Of a stretch of DNA of 64,000 nt, positions 50,267 through 59,614 are shown one piece after another. Position numbers and translations under genes: made by a program. Origin of the DNA: Persicimonas caeni (GTDB lineage Bacteria > Myxococcota_A > Bradymonadia > Bradymonadales > Bradymonadaceae); assembly GCF_006517175.1 (NCBI RefSeq), contig NZ_CP041186.1:6971074-7035073 (forward strand). The letters run 5' to 3'. Below the pieces are notes generated by a model. The model had not been told where the DNA came from, ran no database searches, and was given only the letters and a program-made list of their open reading frames with translations. Position 1 is the stretch's first letter. Every line of letters starts with the position of its first letter.

Positions 50267-50944
50267 CTAGCGCGCCTGCTTGACTCCCGAGATGCAGCAG
50301 TCTTCGTCGGTCACTTTCTCGGGGACACTGTTCTTCAAGTAGCAGTACGCTTTGTCGCCTTTGTGACCCGGGCGCACGTAGGTGAACGCCTGGCAATCCA
50401 TCAGGTTCTCGCAGGCCTCCTGGCACTGGGCAGGCTCGGCGCGCTGCATTTCGAAGGAGCGAAAGTCGCCGCCGGGGCGGTTCGTGTCGAGCTCGAAGCC
50501 GCGAGACTCGAGTTGGGCGATGCGGCGCTGGGCGCGCGGATTGACGCCCGAGACGCAGCACTCCTCGCCCTCGACCTTGTCGGGGATGGAATGCTTGAGC
50601 CGGCAGCGCGGGCCTTGGTTCGCGTCGGGGCGCACATAGGTAAACGCCATGCAGCGCATCTGCTTGTTGCAAAACTCTTTGCATCGGACCGGATCGGCGA
50701 CGTCCATGGCAATCTCACGATAGTCGCTGCCAGGGCGAGCGGTGTCTGACTCCAGGCCGGAGGTGTCGCGCGGCTCGGCGGTAGGCATCTGAGGGGCTTC
50801 GACCGGCTCCTCGGCATTGGGTTCGGCCGCCTCGTCAGCGCTCGTGATTGTCGAGGTGCCGCGGTCGGCGGTCTGACAGGCCACCACGAGCAAACAGAGG
50901 GCAACGGAGGCGAGCAGGGCAGTCAGGGCGCGTGGTGCGTGCAT
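50267..50944 (-). CDS. Lipoprotein with two PAN/Apple-like domains
   Basis: From ATG 50944 the 225-residue protein has a signal peptide ending LLVVAC (lipobox Cys). After an acidic linker, two homologous domains of about 65 residues are visible: SDYREIAMDVADPVRCKEFCNKQMRCMAFTYVRPDANQ and GDFRSFEMQRAEPAQCQEACENLMDCQAFTYVRPGHKG, each with six Cys and ending DCCISGV/ECCVSGV. This is the PAN_4-type pattern that binds proteins or sugars at surfaces. Its role is unknown; it lies 87 bases ahead of the P-type ATPase on the same strand. Confidence 0.88.
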   Translation of the reverse strand: MHAPRALTALLASVALCLLVVACQTADRGTSTITSADEAAEPNAEEPVEAPQMPTAEPRDTSGLESDTARPGSDYREIAMDVADPVRCKEFCNKQMRCMAFTYVRPDANQGPRCRLKHSIPDKVEGEECCVSGVNPRAQRRIAQLESRGFELDTNRPGGDFRSFEMQRAEPAQCQEACENLMDCQAFTYVRPGHKGDKAYCYLKNSVPEKVTDEDCCISGVKQAR

Positions 50945-51011
50945 GAGGGGCCTCGTGCAAAGGGCAAAAAGGATGGGCGGCAATGGTCCAGATGCGACGA
51001 ATTATTAAAAG

Positions 51012-51926
51012 TTAGCGTTTTGCCGTCAAAAGATCATCAAGTCTGCGGAGAGCTTCGGCAGCCCCCAGAGGCAGCGAAACGGTGTTGTTTGGCCCTTGTG
51101 ATTCGCGCGGATTAATGCGAATGACCGAGGAGTCGAATGCCGTGGCCAAACGCTCACACTGCCATCTGACGGTGGGGACGGCCGTGCCTGCACCACACTC
51201 GACGATGGCTAGTTTTTTGCCACGAACTTGCGACAGCCACTGGGACATGCGCCGTTCCTGATCGTGGGTGCGCGCGCCGACAAACCGACCATCGCCAAAC
51301 ATCAGGATGTTCGGACGCGCCAGCGTGTTACATTTGTCACAGTGGGGCAAAGGAGCACTCGCCCGAAACGTTGTCTCGTCGATGTCAACCTGCGTGTCGG
51401 CCGCCGGCCAGATAGCCTGGCTGCAGGGGCGCACGCACTGGAAGTGGTGAATCGAGCCGTGGCATTCGACCACGTTCGCCTCGTCGAATTCCGCGGCTTG
51501 GAATTGCCCGTCGACATTGGACGTGAACACAAAGTAGCCAGCATTCTTGGCGCGGCCCCATTGTCGAAGGATGTCGAAACCCTTGTGGGGGATCGTATCG
51601 CGGTACAGGTGCAGTCGGTGGCCGTAAAAGCCCCAGGCAAGCTGCGGGTCACGCTCGAACCAGGCCGGATTGGCCAGGTCGACGAAGTTCAGCCCGAGCT
51701 TCTCGAAGGGGGGATAGGCTTGCCAAAAGCCCTTGTCACCGCGGAAATCGGGAAGGCCAGAGTCGACGCCCATGCCGGCGCCGGCGCCTACAAAAAGCGC
51801 GTCGGCCTCGTCGATGAGTCGAGCGGCTTTGTTCAATGCTTTGTCACACAAAACTTTGCTTCCCGTTGAGTTCTTGTAAGTATGATGCGACGGTTTGCCG
51901 TATGTACCCGTCGAAGCAGTCGTCAC
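51012..51926 (-). CDS. Sir2-family NAD-dependent deacylase-like protein
   Basis: A 304-residue protein; start at GTG 51926 is provisional because no strong ribosome site is visible. The NAD-binding GAGAGMGVDSGLPDFRGDKG is at about residues 47-66, the adenine/ribose region is FTSNVDGQF (in place of TQNIDxLH) and the catalytic His is in ECHGSIHHFQC near residue 155. Zinc ligands read CVRPC (CX3C) and CDKC, and the final GAGTAVPTVR and INP segments complete the Rossmann fold. It is a divergent sirtuin; deacylase activity is likely but not certain. It is divergent from the FIST-domain gene, start codons 52 bases apart. Confidence 0.87.
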   Translation of the reverse strand: MTTASTGTYGKPSHHTYKNSTGSKVLCDKALNKAARLIDEADALFVGAGAGMGVDSGLPDFRGDKGFWQAYPPFEKLGLNFVDLANPAWFERDPQLAWGFYGHRLHLYRDTIPHKGFDILRQWGRAKNAGYFVFTSNVDGQFQAAEFDEANVVECHGSIHHFQCVRPCSQAIWPAADTQVDIDETTFRASAPLPHCDKCNTLARPNILMFGDGRFVGARTHDQERRMSQWLSQVRGKKLAIVECGAGTAVPTVRWQCERLATAFDSSVIRINPRESQGPNNTVSLPLGAAEALRRLDDLLTAKR

Positions 51927-51978
51927 TCACTCAGACTTTAACTGCTTTTCCCAGTCTCTTGGAGCACGGGGTACTCGG

Positions 51979-53163
51979 ATGAAATGGACAACCGGTTTAT
52001 CACGAAAGCCCGAAACGACACAGGCTTTCCGCGACGCTTGCGCCGGCTTGGATGTCTCTTCGGCCGCAGAGGTCGACGTGTTGCTCGTCTTCTTCTCGGC
52101 GAGTCACACCGACGACGTCGAAGAGTTGTCGTTGGCCATGGCGCGCGACTTTCCCGACGCGGTCTGCGTGGGGTGTAATGCCAATGGCGTCATCGGCGCC
52201 GGCGATGAGGCCGAAACAGGCTCTTCCTTGGCCGTGACCGCAGGGATTCTGCCCGGGGTCGACGTCGAGCCGATTCGCTTCGAGCCCGACGTTCATGATC
52301 GCAGCGACTTCGATTGGCGTCAGCAGTTTGGCGGCGATCCCGAAGTGGCGCCCAATTTTCTCATTCTTTCAGAGCCGACGACCTTCGAGACCGAAGAGCT
52401 GTTGACCGCGCTCGACCGCGCGTTTCCGGACTCGTCGAAATTCGGCGGGCTCGTCAGCGGCGGCGGTCAGGGGCAGGGCAGCAGGCTCATTCTCGAGGGG
52501 CATGTGTACCATGGTGGTGCCATCGGACTCGCGTTTAGCGGAGACCTGCGCGTCGATACGGTTGTCGCGCAAGCCTGCCGACCCATCGGCGAGCCGCTGA
52601 TCGTGACCGATCACACCCAGAATATCATTCACCGATTTGATCGCGGAAACCCGATGGAGGTGTTCCGCAATCTCGTGCACAACCTCGAGGGCAAAGAGCG
52701 AGAACTCGCACAGCACTCGATGTTCGTAGGGATCGGGGTCGAGTCGAAGCGCGGTGAATATCGCCCGGGCGATTTTGTCATTCGCAATATCGTGGGCTTC
52801 AACCCCAAGACGGGGGATTTGGCCGTGGCCGCACCGATCGAGGATCTCGACGTGCTGCAGTTCCACCTGATGGACCCGCGCACCTCATCCTACGAGTTCG
52901 AGCGTGTCGTCGAGGAACTCGCCGAGGCGTTGAACGACCCGTGCCCGTCGCGCGGGGCGTTGCTGTTCAGCGGTACTTCGAACAGCGAGGATCTCGAGCG
53001 CAAGGCCAACGAAGAGTCCCAGCTTCTTCGCGACCGCCTCGGTCAGCTTCCCATCGGCGGATTCTTGTCGGAAGGGGAGATCGGACCGGTCGGCGGCAAG
53101 ACCTGCCTTCACGGTTATGCGAGTATGGTCGCGGTGTTTCGAGAGGCGGGCAGGGCGAAGTAG
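51979..53163 (+). CDS. FIST-domain sensory protein (FIST_N and FIST_C)
   Basis: ATG 51979 gives 394 residues (the frame runs on to 51895). It has the FIST_N pattern (VDVLLVFFSASHTDDVEELSLAMARDFPDAVCVGCNANGVIG) and FIST_C (PSRGALLFSGTSNSEDLERKANEESQLLRDRL, GFLSEGEIGPVGGKTCLHGYASMVAVFR). FIST proteins are thought to sense small ligands such as amino acids and feed signal transduction; they lack enzymatic motifs. No methyl-accepting or diguanylate cyclase domain is fused. A strong terminator follows the gene. Confidence 0.92.
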   Translation: MKWTTGLSRKPETTQAFRDACAGLDVSSAAEVDVLLVFFSASHTDDVEELSLAMARDFPDAVCVGCNANGVIGAGDEAETGSSLAVTAGILPGVDVEPIRFEPDVHDRSDFDWRQQFGGDPEVAPNFLILSEPTTFETEELLTALDRAFPDSSKFGGLVSGGGQGQGSRLILEGHVYHGGAIGLAFSGDLRVDTVVAQACRPIGEPLIVTDHTQNIIHRFDRGNPMEVFRNLVHNLEGKERELAQHSMFVGIGVESKRGEYRPGDFVIRNIVGFNPKTGDLAVAAPIEDLDVLQFHLMDPRTSSYEFERVVEELAEALNDPCPSRGALLFSGTSNSEDLERKANEESQLLRDRLGQLPIGGFLSEGEIGPVGGKTCLHGYASMVAVFREAGRAK

Positions 53164-53203
53164 TCGCCTGAAGAGAGGAAAGATCGACCAGAAGGACATC
53201 AGT

Positions 53204-53240
53204 CGGAGGCAGACCTGAACGGTCTGCCTCCGGCTTTTTT
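53204..53240 (+). terminator. Intrinsic terminator after the FIST gene
   Basis: A perfect 12-base-pair stem (53204-53215 with 53221-53232) with a TGAAC loop is followed by six T residues (53235-53240), whose last two bases overlap the stop codon of the opposite-strand lipoprotein gene. Confidence 0.93.
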
Positions 53241-55440
53241 ATTGTCCCAGCGGAAGCGTGCCCTGGAGCAGGGCGTCGAAGATGATGAAGCCGTTGCGGT
53301 AGTCGACCGGGCGGTTGAGCAAGAACTCGACCTCGAGCGCGGTCAGCGTCGGAGCCAGATCGGAGATGCCCGAAAGCGAGGGGACCGGAAGCTCGAAGGA
53401 GAGCCCCTGCTTGAGCGTCTCCTCGATCTGCGGCCACACTTGGCCGAGCACCAGGCTCTTGATGGCGTTGGCGTTGAGCACCGAGCGATCGCCGGTGGTG
53501 CTCTTGACCCAGGTGGTCACCTGCGGCTCGTCGGGTACGGTGATCGAGATGGCGTTGTCGGCAAGCGACATCAGGATGCCTACCTCGAGGTTGACCGCAT
53601 AGACGTCGGTCTGGTTGGCCAGGTCGGCTTCGATTTCCATTTGGCCGGCGCGCAAGATGAAATCATACGGCTCACCGGCTTTGGGGCGCGAGAGCACCGG
53701 CTGCAGCTTGACCGACAGGTTGGCCTGCTCGGTGATGCCGGCATACTGGTCGGGCATCAAGTCGGTCAGGTCGATTTCGAGAAAGCCCGTCTCCCAGAGG
53801 GTGTGCAGCAAGCCATTGAGCAGCGCCAGTCGGACCCCGACCTGCGCACGGCTCGACTCGAACAGCGGCAGCTCTTCGGTATAGGACGTGGCAAGCGGGA
53901 TACCCGGGCTGGTGGTGAGCGCCGGGGGCTGGTTGGCGGTGATGTTGGTGCCAATCGTCGCCGTCATCGAGTTACGGTAGGTCGTGGCAAAATCGGAAAC
54001 CTCACCGTTGAGGGTGATCGTGAGCGGATCGGTGAACTCGGTGTCGAGGTCGAAGCTCAGGTCCGTCAGTTGCTGCTCGATGGAGTTGAGCGCGTCGGTC
54101 AGCAGCGTGGGCAGTTCGTCGACGAACTGCGAGCGCAGCGTGCCGATGACCATCTCTTCGATCTTGCCGCGAAGGGCGCTCTCAGCCAGCGCGAACACCG
54201 CGTTGGCTTCGGGGCTGGCAAAGTTGCTCTCGGCGCTCTGGATGGAGATGTCGACCTCGTCGACGTTGGCCACGAACTGTTGGCCGGCGCCCGGCTTGTC
54301 GATGCTCAGCGAGGCAAAGCCTGCAATTTCGGCGTCGATGGAGCCGGTCAGGTCGAGCACCTGCTGGTCGAACGAAATGCCCCCTTGGGTGGTCAGCTCG
54401 ACGTCCGGAATCCAGATGAACATCTCGGCGCCGCCGTCGGTCAGCTCGAGCATCACTTGCGGCTCTCCCAACGCCAGGTCGGTGATCCGCAGTTGGCCCG
54501 ACTCCGTGTCGAGCACGGGGTCGGGGATCTGGCTCATGAAGTCGATATTCTTGACCAACAAGACCAAGATATCGACCAGGTCGTCGGTCATGTAGGTCGT
54601 CTCGTCGGGCTGTTGCGGGGCCTGGCCGTCGTCGAAGAAGCGCTGGCCGAGGTCGAGTACGAGCCCGTCGTCGAAGCCAAAGGCGGTCTCCGAGGCGGTG
54701 TTGGCCGTCGCGTAATAATTGGGGGCCCACAGCACGTCGAGCAGGGCCTGGCCGGTGGCGCTGGTGCGCCCGTCGGTGGCCACGACTTCGATATGGTTGA
54801 TGCCGAACTCGGCGTCGATGGTCGTGGTGAAGTTGCCCTGATCATCGAGGTCGACGCCGCGGCCGTTGACGAAAGCGTGCACGTCGGAGTGGGTGTCGGT
54901 GACCTTTCCTTCGACAGTGATCTCGGCAGCGGTGCCGGGGTTGAGCCACTCGCCGGGGGCCGGCGAGATGACCTCGACGGTGGGCGGCGCGTCGTCGACG
55001 ACGATGCGCTTTTTGCCGCAGACCGGCGCGCCTTCGACGCCGGCTTCCACGGTGCATGCTTCGAAGGTCAACTCACCTTCGGCGTCGAGTTTGTAGGCGC
55101 CGGACTCGTCGGTGACCGCGTCGGCGGGTTCGACGGTCCAAGTGACCTCGGCGCCCGGCATCGGCTCGCCGTTTCCATTGAGGACGGTGGCCTGAGGCGT
55201 CACCGTCGCGCCGACTTTGTAGACGGCGCGCGCCGGGTCGAGCTTGACGTCGACCGCGGCTGCAAGGCTAAGGTCGAAGCCCGGCTCATTGTTGGTGTCG
55301 TTGTTGGCCGCGTTATTGGTCAGCGTCCCACCCGAGCCACCCGTCTCGCTGTCTCCACAGCCGGCCATGCCGACCAGGCAGGAGAGGGCGAGGGCAGTGA
55401 CGAGGCGAACTTGCTTGCTATGTGGTCGTCTCATGGTCAT
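53239..55440 (-). CDS. TULIP/BPI-like lipoprotein with Ig-like N-terminal region (paralogue 2)
   Basis: A 733-residue exported protein whose start overlaps the stop of the upstream paralogue (ATGA at 55437-55440). The signal ends CLVGMAGC (Cys28). Residues about 60-235 are Ig-like beta regions (AVYKVGATVTPQATVLNGNG; PPTVEVISPAPGEWLNPG, then FGINHIEVVATDG). Residues about 330-733 alternate long amphipathic helices (SALRGKIEEMVIGTLRSQF) and beta strands, with LLNGLLHTLWETGF followed near the end by LPVPSLSGISDLAPTLTALEVEF and NGFIIFDALL. The W-x-x-G-x-L/F helix and the LPVP/NGF-type ending are like BPI-type TULIP domains that bind lipids. This fold call is by eye and needs structure comparison. 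Confidence 0.72.
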   Translation of the reverse strand: MTMRRPHSKQVRLVTALALSCLVGMAGCGDSETGGSGGTLTNNAANNDTNNEPGFDLSLAAAVDVKLDPARAVYKVGATVTPQATVLNGNGEPMPGAEVTWTVEPADAVTDESGAYKLDAEGELTFEACTVEAGVEGAPVCGKKRIVVDDAPPTVEVISPAPGEWLNPGTAAEITVEGKVTDTHSDVHAFVNGRGVDLDDQGNFTTTIDAEFGINHIEVVATDGRTSATGQALLDVLWAPNYYATANTASETAFGFDDGLVLDLGQRFFDDGQAPQQPDETTYMTDDLVDILVLLVKNIDFMSQIPDPVLDTESGQLRITDLALGEPQVMLELTDGGAEMFIWIPDVELTTQGGISFDQQVLDLTGSIDAEIAGFASLSIDKPGAGQQFVANVDEVDISIQSAESNFASPEANAVFALAESALRGKIEEMVIGTLRSQFVDELPTLLTDALNSIEQQLTDLSFDLDTEFTDPLTITLNGEVSDFATTYRNSMTATIGTNITANQPPALTTSPGIPLATSYTEELPLFESSRAQVGVRLALLNGLLHTLWETGFLEIDLTDLMPDQYAGITEQANLSVKLQPVLSRPKAGEPYDFILRAGQMEIEADLANQTDVYAVNLEVGILMSLADNAISITVPDEPQVTTWVKSTTGDRSVLNANAIKSLVLGQVWPQIEETLKQGLSFELPVPSLSGISDLAPTLTALEVEFLLNRPVDYRNGFIIFDALLQGTLPLGQ

Positions 55441-58190
55441 GGGATGACTCCAAAGGCCCCTTTGAGCACGAAGTGCGTGGTGGTGCCGCCGAGCGCCGGG
55501 TTGACGATGCCCAGGTCACTTCCGGCCGGCAGGCCGTAGGTGCCGAGCGACGTCGGAATCTCGAAGCTCGGGACGGGCAGCGCGGGAAGCGCGTTGTTGA
55601 GCGAGGTGTCGATAACGTTCTGGAGCACGTCCTGGAGGAACGACTCGAGGACGGCGCGCGAGTCGGCGTCCAGGTTGATGCCGATCGGGCTGAAGTACAG
55701 TTCGTTGAGCTGGATATTCTGGAAGCTCAGGTCCGAGCCGTTGAGCTGGACGCCCGAGCGGGCGACTGCACCAATGCGGACGTCGACCGGGTCGTCGAAC
55801 AGGCCCGGGTAGACGATCGACATGCGCATCGCGCCGAGCATGAGCACGACCTTGTCGCTGCCCTGCAGGGCGGCCACCGGCGGTAGGCCGGTCTGAATGT
55901 CGAGCACGGTGCCGTCGGGGAAGGTGCCTCCGATGGCAGAGTCGCTGACGGCGGCGTCGAAGAGTCCTCCGCGCCAAAGCGCGTGCAGCACGTGGTTGAG
56001 CACGCCGATATGCACGCCCGCCGAGATGGCGCGCTGCGGGTCGGCGGTCAACAAGTTCTGACCCTGCGGCATCGGTACGCCCAGCGACGGGGTCGCGCGG
56101 GTAGTATTGGCCGGCTCGAAGACCGTGCCGAGCCCGAACAGCGCACGGGTCGCGTTGACGCCGAGCGACGAGAAGTTCACGCCGAAGTCCAGGCTCAGGC
56201 TGCCGTTGCCGTCGAGGCGCGGGATGTCGAAGCTGTTGCCGAGCCCGCTGATGTCGAGACCCGACATGAGATCGTCGAGCGTGCTGTTGACTTGGGTTTT
56301 GAGGAAGCTCTCGACTTCGTCTTCAACGGTGCTGCGCAGGGTGCCTTGTACGAGGCTGCTGAGGATATTGTCGAGCCATCCCCAGCCGGTCAGTCCGACC
56401 ACGATATTGCCCGAGGTCACGCTGACCGTACTCGGGCGTACCTGCAAGCGCGGCCGGCCGTTGTGCAGGTCGAGCGTCGCGTCCATGCTCGCCGTCAAGC
56501 TGCTGACGTCGACCGACACGTCCAAGCTCAAGTTGGTCTCTTCGAGATCGATCTCGACGTTGCGAATGACCGCGCCCAGACGCAAGCCATCTTGAATCAG
56601 CGTCAAAGACGAGTCATGTGGGCCGTCGATGCGGCTGCCTCGATACATGATCTTGTAGCGATAGGTGCAAAAACCGAGCACATCGACGCAACCTTCGGTC
56701 AGCGGGTTGGCCGCCAGCATCGACTGGTGCAGTTGGTCGCGAAGGCCGTCGCTGTTGAGCACCGTATGCAGTACGTCATTGAGGCTGTCGAGCGGGTCTC
56801 CGTAGTTGCCGTCGTCGACGGCGTCTTGGTCGACCCACAGCGACACGGCGTCGCTCATGTGCTGGTCTTCGGCTCCCCACTTGTCGGCGGTGAGGAAAGC
56901 GCAGGTGGTGCTGTTTTCTTCTTTGTACTCGCCGGTCGCCGCGTCGGTGGCGCGGATGTCGACGAAGTTGATGCCGAAGCGCACGGTCACGTCGCTCTGG
57001 AAGGTGCCGTCGGAGGCGACGGTGACCAGGCTGTTGTTGACCGTGACCTCACCGATGCCCTGAGCGTCGTTGACGCGGCCCTCGAAGGTGACCGTGTCGC
57101 CAGGAGCGGCGTCGCGCATGGCGCCGTTGGTCGGCGACACGCATTCGATGCTCGGGCCTTGGCCGTTGACGACGATGTCGACGCTCTGCTCGAGGGTCAT
57201 GTCGTCTTTGGTTTCACCATCGACGGTGGCGGTGACCGTGTAGGTGCCTTCCTGGTTGTAGCGGAAGCGGCCGTGGCCGAAGGTCTCGCCGGAGGGGTTG
57301 CTCACAAACGAGACGAAGGCGTCGTCCACCTGGTTGCCATACTCATCGGTGACGATGGTGGCGATGTCGACGACTTGACCGGTGTCGTAGAAGGGCAAGT
57401 CGGGGACCTTCGAGATGGCGAGTGCCGCCGGCAGCGACGGATTGACCTCGAGGGCCTGTCCACGCTCTTCGCTCGCGCCGTCAGCGGTGCAGCTGACGGT
57501 GTATACGCCGCTCTTGGTGATGGTGACGGTGTGGTCGTCGACTGCGATGCCGGCGCCGGAGGCGTCGACTTCGACGGTGGTATCAGCACCCTCGACCTCG
57601 TTGCCGTAGGCGTCGAAGACGTCGCAAGTGGCCGTCGCCGAGTCGCCCGCCGTCACGATATTGGTGTCGAGGGCGGTCACCACGGTATGCGGCGCTCCCG
57701 CTTCGATGGTCAACTCGGCGGGAGTGTCGTCGGCGAGGCTCAGGTCGGGAAACTGGCAAGAGACGGTGGCGTTGCCCGCCATCGTCGGCACCAGCGAAAG
57801 AGCGCTCTCCTCGATGAACGACTGCTCCGGAGCGTAGACCAGCGTCGGTTCGACGCCGTCGGGGATCTCCACCTCGCCGCCCTCGGCATCGAGCAGCTGG
57901 CAGTCGACCGTAATCGGGGTGCCGGCCGACACCGTCGTCGATGCGAGCACCGTCTCGACACTCGTCGGGACGGCGGGGGCTTCGAAGTCGGCGTCGGGAA
58001 GGGCGGTGTCAGTTCCCGCGTCTTCCGTTCCGGCGTCAGCCTCTCCGACGATGCCCTTGCTACGGTTTCCACCGTCGTCATCGCCACAGCCACTTGCCAG
58101 GCCGAGCGTCGCGCTCGCCAGCAACAAAACAAATGTAACGGAGCGTGTCCGCCACCGAGCAAAGGTTGCGCTGCCTTGCAGCCGTACCAT
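55437..58190 (-). CDS. TULIP/BPI-like lipoprotein with Ig-like repeats (paralogue 1)
   Basis: A 917-residue exported protein with lipobox Cys35 (LGLASGC). Residues about 65-380 hold about four Ig-like units (SAGTPITVDCQLLDAEG; TAGDSATATCDVFDAYGN; DTGQVVDIATIVTDEYGNQVDDAFVS), then GPSIECVSPTNGAMRDAAPGDTVTF with FGINFVDIRATDA, matching the second paralogue. The C-half (about 440-917) has the same alternation: VEDEVESFLKTQVNSTLDDLM helices, HIGVLNHVLHALWRGGLF, and LPALPVPSFEIPTSLGTYG near the end. Same strand order and a four-base overlap with the second gene imply one operon and coupled translation. Function is not known; lipid binding is inferred from the fold resemblance. Confidence 0.72.
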   Translation of the reverse strand: MVRLQGSATFARWRTRSVTFVLLLASATLGLASGCGDDDGGNRSKGIVGEADAGTEDAGTDTALPDADFEAPAVPTSVETVLASTTVSAGTPITVDCQLLDAEGGEVEIPDGVEPTLVYAPEQSFIEESALSLVPTMAGNATVSCQFPDLSLADDTPAELTIEAGAPHTVVTALDTNIVTAGDSATATCDVFDAYGNEVEGADTTVEVDASGAGIAVDDHTVTITKSGVYTVSCTADGASEERGQALEVNPSLPAALAISKVPDLPFYDTGQVVDIATIVTDEYGNQVDDAFVSFVSNPSGETFGHGRFRYNQEGTYTVTATVDGETKDDMTLEQSVDIVVNGQGPSIECVSPTNGAMRDAAPGDTVTFEGRVNDAQGIGEVTVNNSLVTVASDGTFQSDVTVRFGINFVDIRATDAATGEYKEENSTTCAFLTADKWGAEDQHMSDAVSLWVDQDAVDDGNYGDPLDSLNDVLHTVLNSDGLRDQLHQSMLAANPLTEGCVDVLGFCTYRYKIMYRGSRIDGPHDSSLTLIQDGLRLGAVIRNVEIDLEETNLSLDVSVDVSSLTASMDATLDLHNGRPRLQVRPSTVSVTSGNIVVGLTGWGWLDNILSSLVQGTLRSTVEDEVESFLKTQVNSTLDDLMSGLDISGLGNSFDIPRLDGNGSLSLDFGVNFSSLGVNATRALFGLGTVFEPANTTRATPSLGVPMPQGQNLLTADPQRAISAGVHIGVLNHVLHALWRGGLFDAAVSDSAIGGTFPDGTVLDIQTGLPPVAALQGSDKVVLMLGAMRMSIVYPGLFDDPVDVRIGAVARSGVQLNGSDLSFQNIQLNELYFSPIGINLDADSRAVLESFLQDVLQNVIDTSLNNALPALPVPSFEIPTSLGTYGLPAGSDLGIVNPALGGTTTHFVLKGAFGVIP

Positions 58191-58495: not shown

Positions 58496-59614
58496 ATGCG
58501 TTCGCTGTCCGCTCTGCTGTGCCTGATTGCCATGGCCGCCGCGCTTGTCGGCTGTGAGAGGGAACCGTGCCATGGTCAACCCGAAAAGAACTGGAACGCC
58601 GAGGGAACTTGGGGATTTCTGGGCGAGCTTCCTGTGGGCGAGAAGGGCGCAGTGTGCGGTGCCGACGAAGACCAGGTGGACATCGATCACGGCCTGGCCA
58701 AGGATAAGTCTGCCGAGGTTCGCAAGCAGTGGAAGGGTTGGCTGGCGGATAACGGATGGACTGCCGAGCCTGCCGGTCCGTGGAACAAGAAGGAGCGCGA
58801 GGAGGAGTTCTGGGGGGAGAGGATTGGGATTTACGGCAAGGGCAACAAGACGATTCGCGTGTCGTTGCTGCCGTCTGACGTAGGACTGAGTTCCCGGGTC
58901 GAGTGGTTGCACAGGATTCCATTTCTGCCGGTCGACGAGAATCTCTTCAAAGCGGGCGAGGCGCGTCTCGATGCAGTGCGCAAGGCAACCAGCGCATGGC
59001 AGCCTGATCAGACGACCGAGTGCAATGCAGAGTCGCTGGAGGAGGTCTCCGGAGAGAAGGGTGAGCCATTGATCATGATCGACCGCCGCCACCTCGAGTT
59101 GATGGACAAAAAGGAAGAGGAGGCATTTGGCCAATACACTATGGCTGACCGCCTCGTCCGCGCGCCGGAGCGTGTGTCCATGAAGGAGGACCATGTCGGC
59201 TGGTCGCGTTCGATCAACCAGCGCCGTCGGCGGGCGAAGGCGTTCGAAATGTCGCCGATGGTATTCGTCTTCCACGCCACGGCTGAAGACCTGCAGCCAC
59301 CGAAGATCACGAGTTGGCCTGGACGCAAGACCGCGGACGGCAAGCCGCTTACGACCTTTACGAGCGGCAAACTCTCCGGTCATGCGTTGCTCGCTGACGC
59401 CGATGCCGGTCAGGTTCTCTGCCACTTTTCGATTTCGGTCGAAAACGACAAAGAGTTCGAGACGCCCCGCAAGAGCGCCATGGAAGCTCTCTGGGTCGAT
59501 CTCATGGTTCAGACCCAACGGGCGATCGATGCCAAAGTTGCCCAATTTCCCGTTCTGGATGATTTCAAGCGGCGCGGCTCACTGGTCGCCGAGGCGACGC
59601 GGCGCGGGCCGTGA
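58496..59614 (+). CDS. Hypothetical lipoprotein
   Basis: A 372-residue protein from ATG 58496 with a GAAGGGAG ribosome site. The signal ends AALVGCE (lipobox Cys20). No domain was recognised: the mature part has HGQPEKNWNAEGTWGFLGELPVGEKG, a KKEREEEFWGERIGIYGKG region and FVFHATAEDLQPPKITSW. The gene faces away from the TULIP-like pair, and the 305-base gap between them (58191-58495), AT-rich around 58260-58340, probably holds both promoters. The gene is slightly AT-richer than its neighbours. Confidence 0.78.
   Translation: MRSLSALLCLIAMAAALVGCEREPCHGQPEKNWNAEGTWGFLGELPVGEKGAVCGADEDQVDIDHGLAKDKSAEVRKQWKGWLADNGWTAEPAGPWNKKEREEEFWGERIGIYGKGNKTIRVSLLPSDVGLSSRVEWLHRIPFLPVDENLFKAGEARLDAVRKATSAWQPDQTTECNAESLEEVSGEKGEPLIMIDRRHLELMDKKEEEAFGQYTMADRLVRAPERVSMKEDHVGWSRSINQRRRRAKAFEMSPMVFVFHATAEDLQPPKITSWPGRKTADGKPLTTFTSGKLSGHALLADADAGQVLCHFSISVENDKEFETPRKSAMEALWVDLMVQTQRAIDAKVAQFPVLDDFKRRGSLVAEATRRGP

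Follow-up and report, generated by a model that had tools for sequence, protein, structure and literature searches.

Two overlapping genes in the genome of Persicimonas caeni, a predatory member of the Bradymonadales, raise the question of whether this bacterium makes a matched pair of lipid-binding proteins akin to BPI and LBP. BPI, LBP and CETP are human blood proteins with a tube-shaped fold that carries lipids. The genes lie on the minus strand of the window, that is the whole stretch of 64,000 nucleotides that was analysed, and had been described from its letters alone (the sequence-only reading) as tandem exported lipoproteins joined by an ATGA overlap. Both open reading frames were found where that reading had placed them. 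The upstream gene, P2 (55437-58190, minus strand), encodes a lipoprotein of 917 aa with four Ig domains and a predicted double TULIP, and the downstream gene, P1 (53239-55440, minus strand), one of 733 aa with two Ig domains and a predicted double TULIP. P2 is transcribed first and then P1, the end of the former gene and the start of the latter sharing exactly four bases (ATGA) at 55437-55440 (minus strand), as had been claimed. A GGAG stands 7 nt upstream of the inner ATG, inside the end of the P2 gene.

The surroundings of the genes were analysed for further members of the unit. Downstream, a terminator-like hairpin with a 15-bp stem, a match to the consensus only, occupies 53201-53235 between P1 and a convergent gene for a FIST-domain protein (51895-53163, plus strand) and may mark the end of the two-gene unit. 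The upstream neighbour of P2 is a divergent ORF (58496-59614, plus strand) for a lipoprotein-like protein of 372 aa without a Pfam match. A larger operon was rejected, as neighbour clustering of about 60 loci revealed no third gene travelling with the pair, so that no envelope partner is implicated. In one branch only of these loci, the Lujinxingia-like genomes (L074-L078, L092, L093, L095-L098), a gene for a Ser/Thr protein kinase is located directly upstream of P2, about 60-145 bp away on the same strand. PADLOC gave no match to a defence system for the locus, tblastn against PLSDB no match that would speak for plasmid spread, and the NCBIfam search nothing above cut-off. The locus is best explained as a two-gene operon encoding a matched lipoprotein pair, which forms part of a joint reading that we consider rather probable. 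Farther off in the window, a gene for a lipoprotein-like protein with two PAN domains (50267-50983, minus strand) adjoins a SIR2-family gene (51012-51926, minus strand), which in turn neighbours the gene for the FIST sensor.

The N-terminal parts of both proteins were analysed for export signals and stalk domains. Each carries a signal peptide with a lipobox cysteine followed by Gly at +2 and Asp at +3, of the MAG/ASG type, namely ASG-C35 in P2 (58086-58190, minus strand) and MAG-C28 in P1 (55357-55440, minus strand), thereby bearing out their description as exported lipoproteins. By pattern, a lipobox was recognised in 25 of 39 P1 homologs and 29 of 44 P2 homologs, those without the pattern including truncated or mis-started ORFs; the +2 residue was mostly Gly, with Asp in a minority. 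The signal is followed in both by a low-confidence linker that is acidic or Asn-rich (for P2, the acidic residues 35-71 at 57978-58088, minus strand, pLDDT being below 50 for residues 1-71). The Ig-like N-part that had been proposed was recovered by Pfam, model and VIA as a stalk of four Ig domains in P2 (residues 72-163, 164-251, 252-344 and 345-435; 56886-57977, minus strand) and two in P1 (58-150 and 151-240; 54721-55269, minus strand). The fourth domain of P2 and the second of P1 are Glucodextran_B domains, and this Pfam family passes its cut-off in both proteins.

Such stalks bring in a different role, that of a surface lipid scavenger or prey-lipid receptor whose outward-facing tubes would, like LBP in serum, take up lipids or other hydrophobic compounds from the medium or from prey. 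The linker and Ig stalk resemble those of surface proteins, the Ig part of P2 being aligned by VIA with the adhesins FdeC (Z 14.5) and invasin (Z 11.8), and Cys-rich repeats in some single-gene relatives (see below) suit an extracellular setting. The host is also probably a wide-ranging predator (PMC7188933). However, the pair is also present in many uncultured Myxococcota with no recorded lifestyle, and we regard a role in the uptake of foreign lipids as rather unlikely.

The fold of the C-halves was predicted with AlphaFold2, using alignments composed solely of the window proteins and loci from related genomes. The models reached a pLDDT of 88.3 and a pTM of 0.79 for P1 and a pLDDT of 86.4 and a pTM of 0.64 for P2, the low pTM of the latter probably reflecting the flexible connections along its row of four Ig domains. 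What remains of each protein after the Ig domains is predicted to form one large unit with the strand and long-helix order of a double TULIP. For both proteins the best Foldseek ranks were taken by CETP, BPI and LBP with E values of 1e-16 to 5e-14, and VIA-align 2 gave Z scores of 18.7-19.3 to BPI and LBP with about 410 of the 456 BPI residues aligned. For the double TULIP of P1 (residues 241-733; 53242-54720, minus strand) the VIA Z scores were 18.9 for BPI, 18.8 for LBP and 15.1 for CETP; residues 256-728 were laid onto BPI 1-456 over 412 residues at 3.6 A, and the next-best match outside these three proteins was an Ig match at Z 11.2. The corresponding values for P2 (residues 440-917; 55440-56873, minus strand) were 19.3 for LBP, 19.1 for BPI and 16.6 for CETP, residues 445-916 being laid onto BPI 1-456 over 414 residues at 4.1 A, with the stalk Ig domains next at Z 14.5. 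Most VIA rows were Ig matches to the stalks, and a family missing from these lists was not counted as excluded. Further down, the structural matches of P2 included P47, OrfX2 and OrfX3, which are bacterial TULIPs, as well as Der p 7 and SPLUNC1/BPIFA1, which are single TULIPs.

Both models thus contain the long helix on a curled anti-parallel sheet, closed into a tube, that defines the TULIP fold (Foldseek, VIA Z 15-19), and in both two such units are predicted to stand head to head through a central sheet over the whole protein, as in LBP, BPI and CETP. The models, together with independent sequence profiles, support the assignment of both C-halves as complete BPI-type double TULIPs. The sequence-only reading had proposed a BPI/LBP-type TULIP fold, which a model lacking the super-roll or a profile pointing to another fold would have contradicted; two structure comparisons gave full-length double TULIPs for both proteins, and the profiles also picked LBP and BPI.

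These sequence searches matter because the structure predictor may remember BPI. The profile of P2, compared with all PDB sequences, placed LBP first at E 4.4e-4 when built from 28 homologs, followed by two BPI chains, and the best match with 39 homologs was again LBP at E 5.7e-5. The profile of P1 found BPI at E 0.01 and 0.013 over the equivalent region. Among the 28 P2 homologs, sub-cut-off Pfam matches were obtained to LBP_BPI_CETP in 13, to LBP_BPI_CETP_C in two and to Grp7_allergen, a TULIP family, in three. With a gathering cut-off of 28.8 bits for PF01273, P2 scored 13.3 bits and P1 gave no match; the two proteins were therefore filed as relatives and not as Pfam members. P1 and P2 were aligned with each other by BLASTP at E 1e-14 over about 530 aa, and hhalign of their C-halves gave a probability of 99.8 and an E value of 1e-28, the N-halves of the two regions, and likewise their C-halves, being matched in register. 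By these alignments the two proteins are paralogs of common descent. The similarity between the N-TULIP and C-TULIP halves themselves was undetectable by hhalign, and that between the halves of BPI is reported to have likewise escaped PSI-BLAST (PMC6791001).

The finer sequence features were also compared. The helix of LLNxxLHxLWxxGxF type that had been noticed in both proteins is present as LLNGLLHTLWETGFL at residues 540-554 of P1 and as VLNHVLHALWRGGLF at residues 730-744 of P2 (55959-56003, minus strand), where it is the most conserved part of the family with H736, L738, W739, R740 and G742 invariant. The second motif, LPVPSxxxIS, is exact in the shorter protein (LPVPSLSGIS, 684-693), but the longer one has LPVPSFEIPTS at 871-881. 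Similarly, of the long amphipathic helices described before, the great length was confirmed (420-458; 605-643), but the hydrophobic moment was not above that of shuffles. Helices without a clear hydrophobic moment, like Ig stalks of a type common in adhesins, would suit a scaffold or adhesin whose TULIP part no longer binds lipid and instead offers a platform for protein-protein contacts on the tip of the Ig stalk. This is at odds with the strands, about half of those tested showing alternating hydrophobic faces above shuffles (p < 0.05), and with the full double-TULIP architecture, which persists even among members that have diverged deeply, to identities as low as 23-32%. We therefore consider a loss of lipid binding improbable, more so than the uptake of foreign lipids at the surface.

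The conservation of the pair was analysed in genomes of the same class as the host. Full-length P2 was found in 38 of the 57 genomes searched, a count made from the search output; the pair is missing from several relatives (family f5 and some of f1) and is hence not essential in the group. Among 39 loci from GTDB genomes, P2 is immediately followed by P1 in the same orientation in 35 (one cut by the contig end), P1 is absent from three, and in one the contig is too short to tell, so that 35 of the 38 loci that could be assessed have the two genes side by side. In the 47 loci examined, the start of P1 usually falls between -4 and +4 of the P2 stop, at least 21 of them having it at -4. The distance matrices of P1 and P2 were correlated with r 0.87, the permutation maximum being 0.20; this correlation and the adjacency would also be expected if an operon were simply passed on vertically. 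Genomes of family f3 hold two or three pairs each (L099/L104/L120, L103/L110, L106/L113, L101/L107), and in the tree their P1s and P2s split into the same two groups, with which the distances agree apart from a small overlap. This common split indicates that the pair was copied as a unit with both genes kept, which argues for a joint function more strongly than adjacency alone, joint function here not implying physical contact. The proposal of a matched pair is thus sustained by the conserved adjacency, the short overlaps and the duplication as a unit.

BPI and LBP bind the phosphates of LPS through a basic N-terminal tip. As the nearest solved relatives of P1 and P2 are LBP and BPI, a BPI-like LPS binder acting on the LPS of prey or of the host itself was considered. 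The TULIP parts are, however, acidic, with 20 K+R against 74 D+E in P1 and 23 against 55 in P2, and the family median charge is -50 for P1 and -17 for P2 and negative across families. The whole-domain charge, which is that of the entire domain and not of its tip, is strongly negative, and the binding of LPS phosphates is accordingly unlikely for such acidic proteins. Searches of the host genome for LpxC, LptD and MlaA gave no match, although each of the three was positive in E. coli and in one or more further controls. The genome does, however, encode three MCE/MlaD-domain proteins. These results suggest a non-standard outer membrane that lacks standard LPS and the usual outer-membrane Mla partner, divergent forms of LpxC, LptD or MlaA being possible; with LpxC and LptD undetected, the host probably has no LPS of its own. 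The charge and the undetected LpxC and LptD together disfavour an LPS receptor, which we regard as highly improbable. A phospholipid, sphingolipid or other hydrophobic compound is the more plausible ligand.

A BPI-type double TULIP is a tube with two lipid pockets. TULIP domains are described as holding lipids in the tube and carrying them through water (PMC5507252, PMC6791001), although the fold by itself is no proof that lipid is transferred. The reading that we favour, and hold to be somewhat more probable than all others taken together, is an outer-membrane-anchored pair of stalked double TULIPs that binds and passes on a phospholipid or other hydrophobic molecule. The outer membrane is the most likely anchor of P1 and P2, each double TULIP being borne on a flexible linker and an Ig stalk, long in P2 and short in P1, and the orientation could be either periplasmic or outward. 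The tubes would bind the lipid, and P1 and P2 would cooperate, passing it between themselves or on to a partner, whereby it would cross the aqueous space from the outer membrane to a second membrane. If an Ig domain measures about 4 nm and a double TULIP 12 nm, the estimated reach is about 28 nm for P2 and 20 nm for P1, plus linkers. A longer and a shorter tube that are produced together and share one membrane would fit a hand-off chain. Lipid sensing, which the sequence-only reading had named beside lipid transfer, would be a more speculative variant.

The pair was then compared with known systems. The animal proteins LBP, BPI and CETP (1ewf, 1bp1, 4m4d, 2obd) share with it two tandem TULIPs covering the whole of BPI 1-456 and a sequence homology detectable for P2, P1 and their single-gene relatives, whereas P1 and P2 are bacterial, lipid-anchored, Ig-stalked, acidic, co-inherited as a pair and below the Pfam cut-off. 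P47, OrfX2 and OrfX3 of clostridial gene clusters (6ekt, 5wix, 8fbf, 8bgm) have a bacterial TULIP fold and appear as lower-ranked structural matches, but their similarity to P2 (Z about 8-9) is far weaker than that of BPI and LBP; to our knowledge they are not Ig-stalked lipoprotein pairs. YceB/DUF1439, DUF2140 and DUF2993 are bacterial TULIP domains, some in outer-membrane lipoproteins, yet with a single TULIP and a short tether (PMC6791001), and neither P1 nor P2 matches them in Pfam. The most familiar bacterial double TULIP, DUF4403 (PF14356), is a predicted BPI-like pseudodimeric bacterial TULIP (Levine 2019, PMC6791001); like P1 and P2 it is a double TULIP, often a lipoprotein and also present in Myxococcota (47 of 283 genomes), but its tether has 20-25 aa and an Ig stalk is not mentioned in PMC6791001. 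Membership of P1 and P2 in DUF4403 was rejected, there being no hmmscan match and hhalign probabilities of at most 1.4% against 20 Myxococcota DUF4403 proteins. A DUF4403 search of the host genome gave no match, and neither did that of the control genomes. According to Levine, the tethers of YceB and DUF4403, at most 25 aa, cannot span a periplasm of at least 20 nm and a partner is needed (PMC6791001), the tethers of diderm bacterial TULIPs being judged there too short to bridge the periplasm. P1 and P2 have stalks that are by estimate long enough to do so, conserved paired genes and a host seemingly without LPS synthesis. Among open-access papers, none was found on BPI-family proteins of Myxococcota. 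The family and its architecture are new and the fold is known.

Relatives of the pair were finally sought by profile searches in 283 Myxococcota genomes and were present in 169, a part of these matching by the Ig domains alone; twenty relative loci were read out of these matches. They revealed a third type, P3, consisting of single-gene proteins whose C-half is a double TULIP and whose length is mostly about 670-1100 aa. PF01273 is matched by several of these P3 proteins, and in one case (L163) the score of 30.4 bits exceeds the gathering cut-off of 28.8 bits. Searched directly with PF01273, 35 of the 283 genomes gave a match at E 0.001 and 15 passed the cut-off, the best at 43.5 bits, with no match in any of 14 control genomes. 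In a tree of 96 TULIP regions, P1, P2 and P3 each fell on one side of a branch with support of 100, 100 and 80, respectively. A P3 query of the host genome gave short partial matches only.

Known bacterial TULIPs are tied to animal BPI by remote profile scores, whereas the family of P1 and P2 has the full-length BPI architecture and some of its members pass the curated LBP/BPI/CETP model. The family of P1, P2 and P3 opens a direct way to ask if BPI-type proteins had a bacterial origin, and the recurring matched pair is a promising candidate for a system of lipid handling at the outer membrane that has not been described before. If the pair moves lipids, it would show a supply route of such outer membranes. 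A bolder proposal, which we advance tentatively and rate well below the general lipid-passing reading, is that diderms lacking LPS have a new lipid pathway at the outer membrane. BPI-family tubes on paired long and short stalks, derived from one ancestor, would there stand in for MlaA and relay lipids across the envelope from the outer-membrane side, and the closest bacterial kin of animal LBP, BPI and CETP would belong to this family of Myxococcota. If true, such a relay family bears on the origin of these animal proteins.

Some further observations were made on the relatives. The P3 clade of single-gene lipoproteins with stalk and double TULIP is spread across Myxococcota (L159-L174; G129:C25:3993-4328). 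Dicty_CTDC Cys-rich repeats stand ahead of the Ig stalk, or replace it, in some P3 proteins, and those of L169, L170 and L173 have 7-8 of these Dictyostelium-type repeats (PF00526) in the N-terminal part, the place taken by Ig domains in the pairs. In f15, a further family of Myxococcota, PF01273 matches come two at a time with about 3.2-3.4 kb between them (G122:C144, G084:C212, G064:C158, G186:C97, G201:C368), an arrangement that resembles tandem pairs of TULIP genes.
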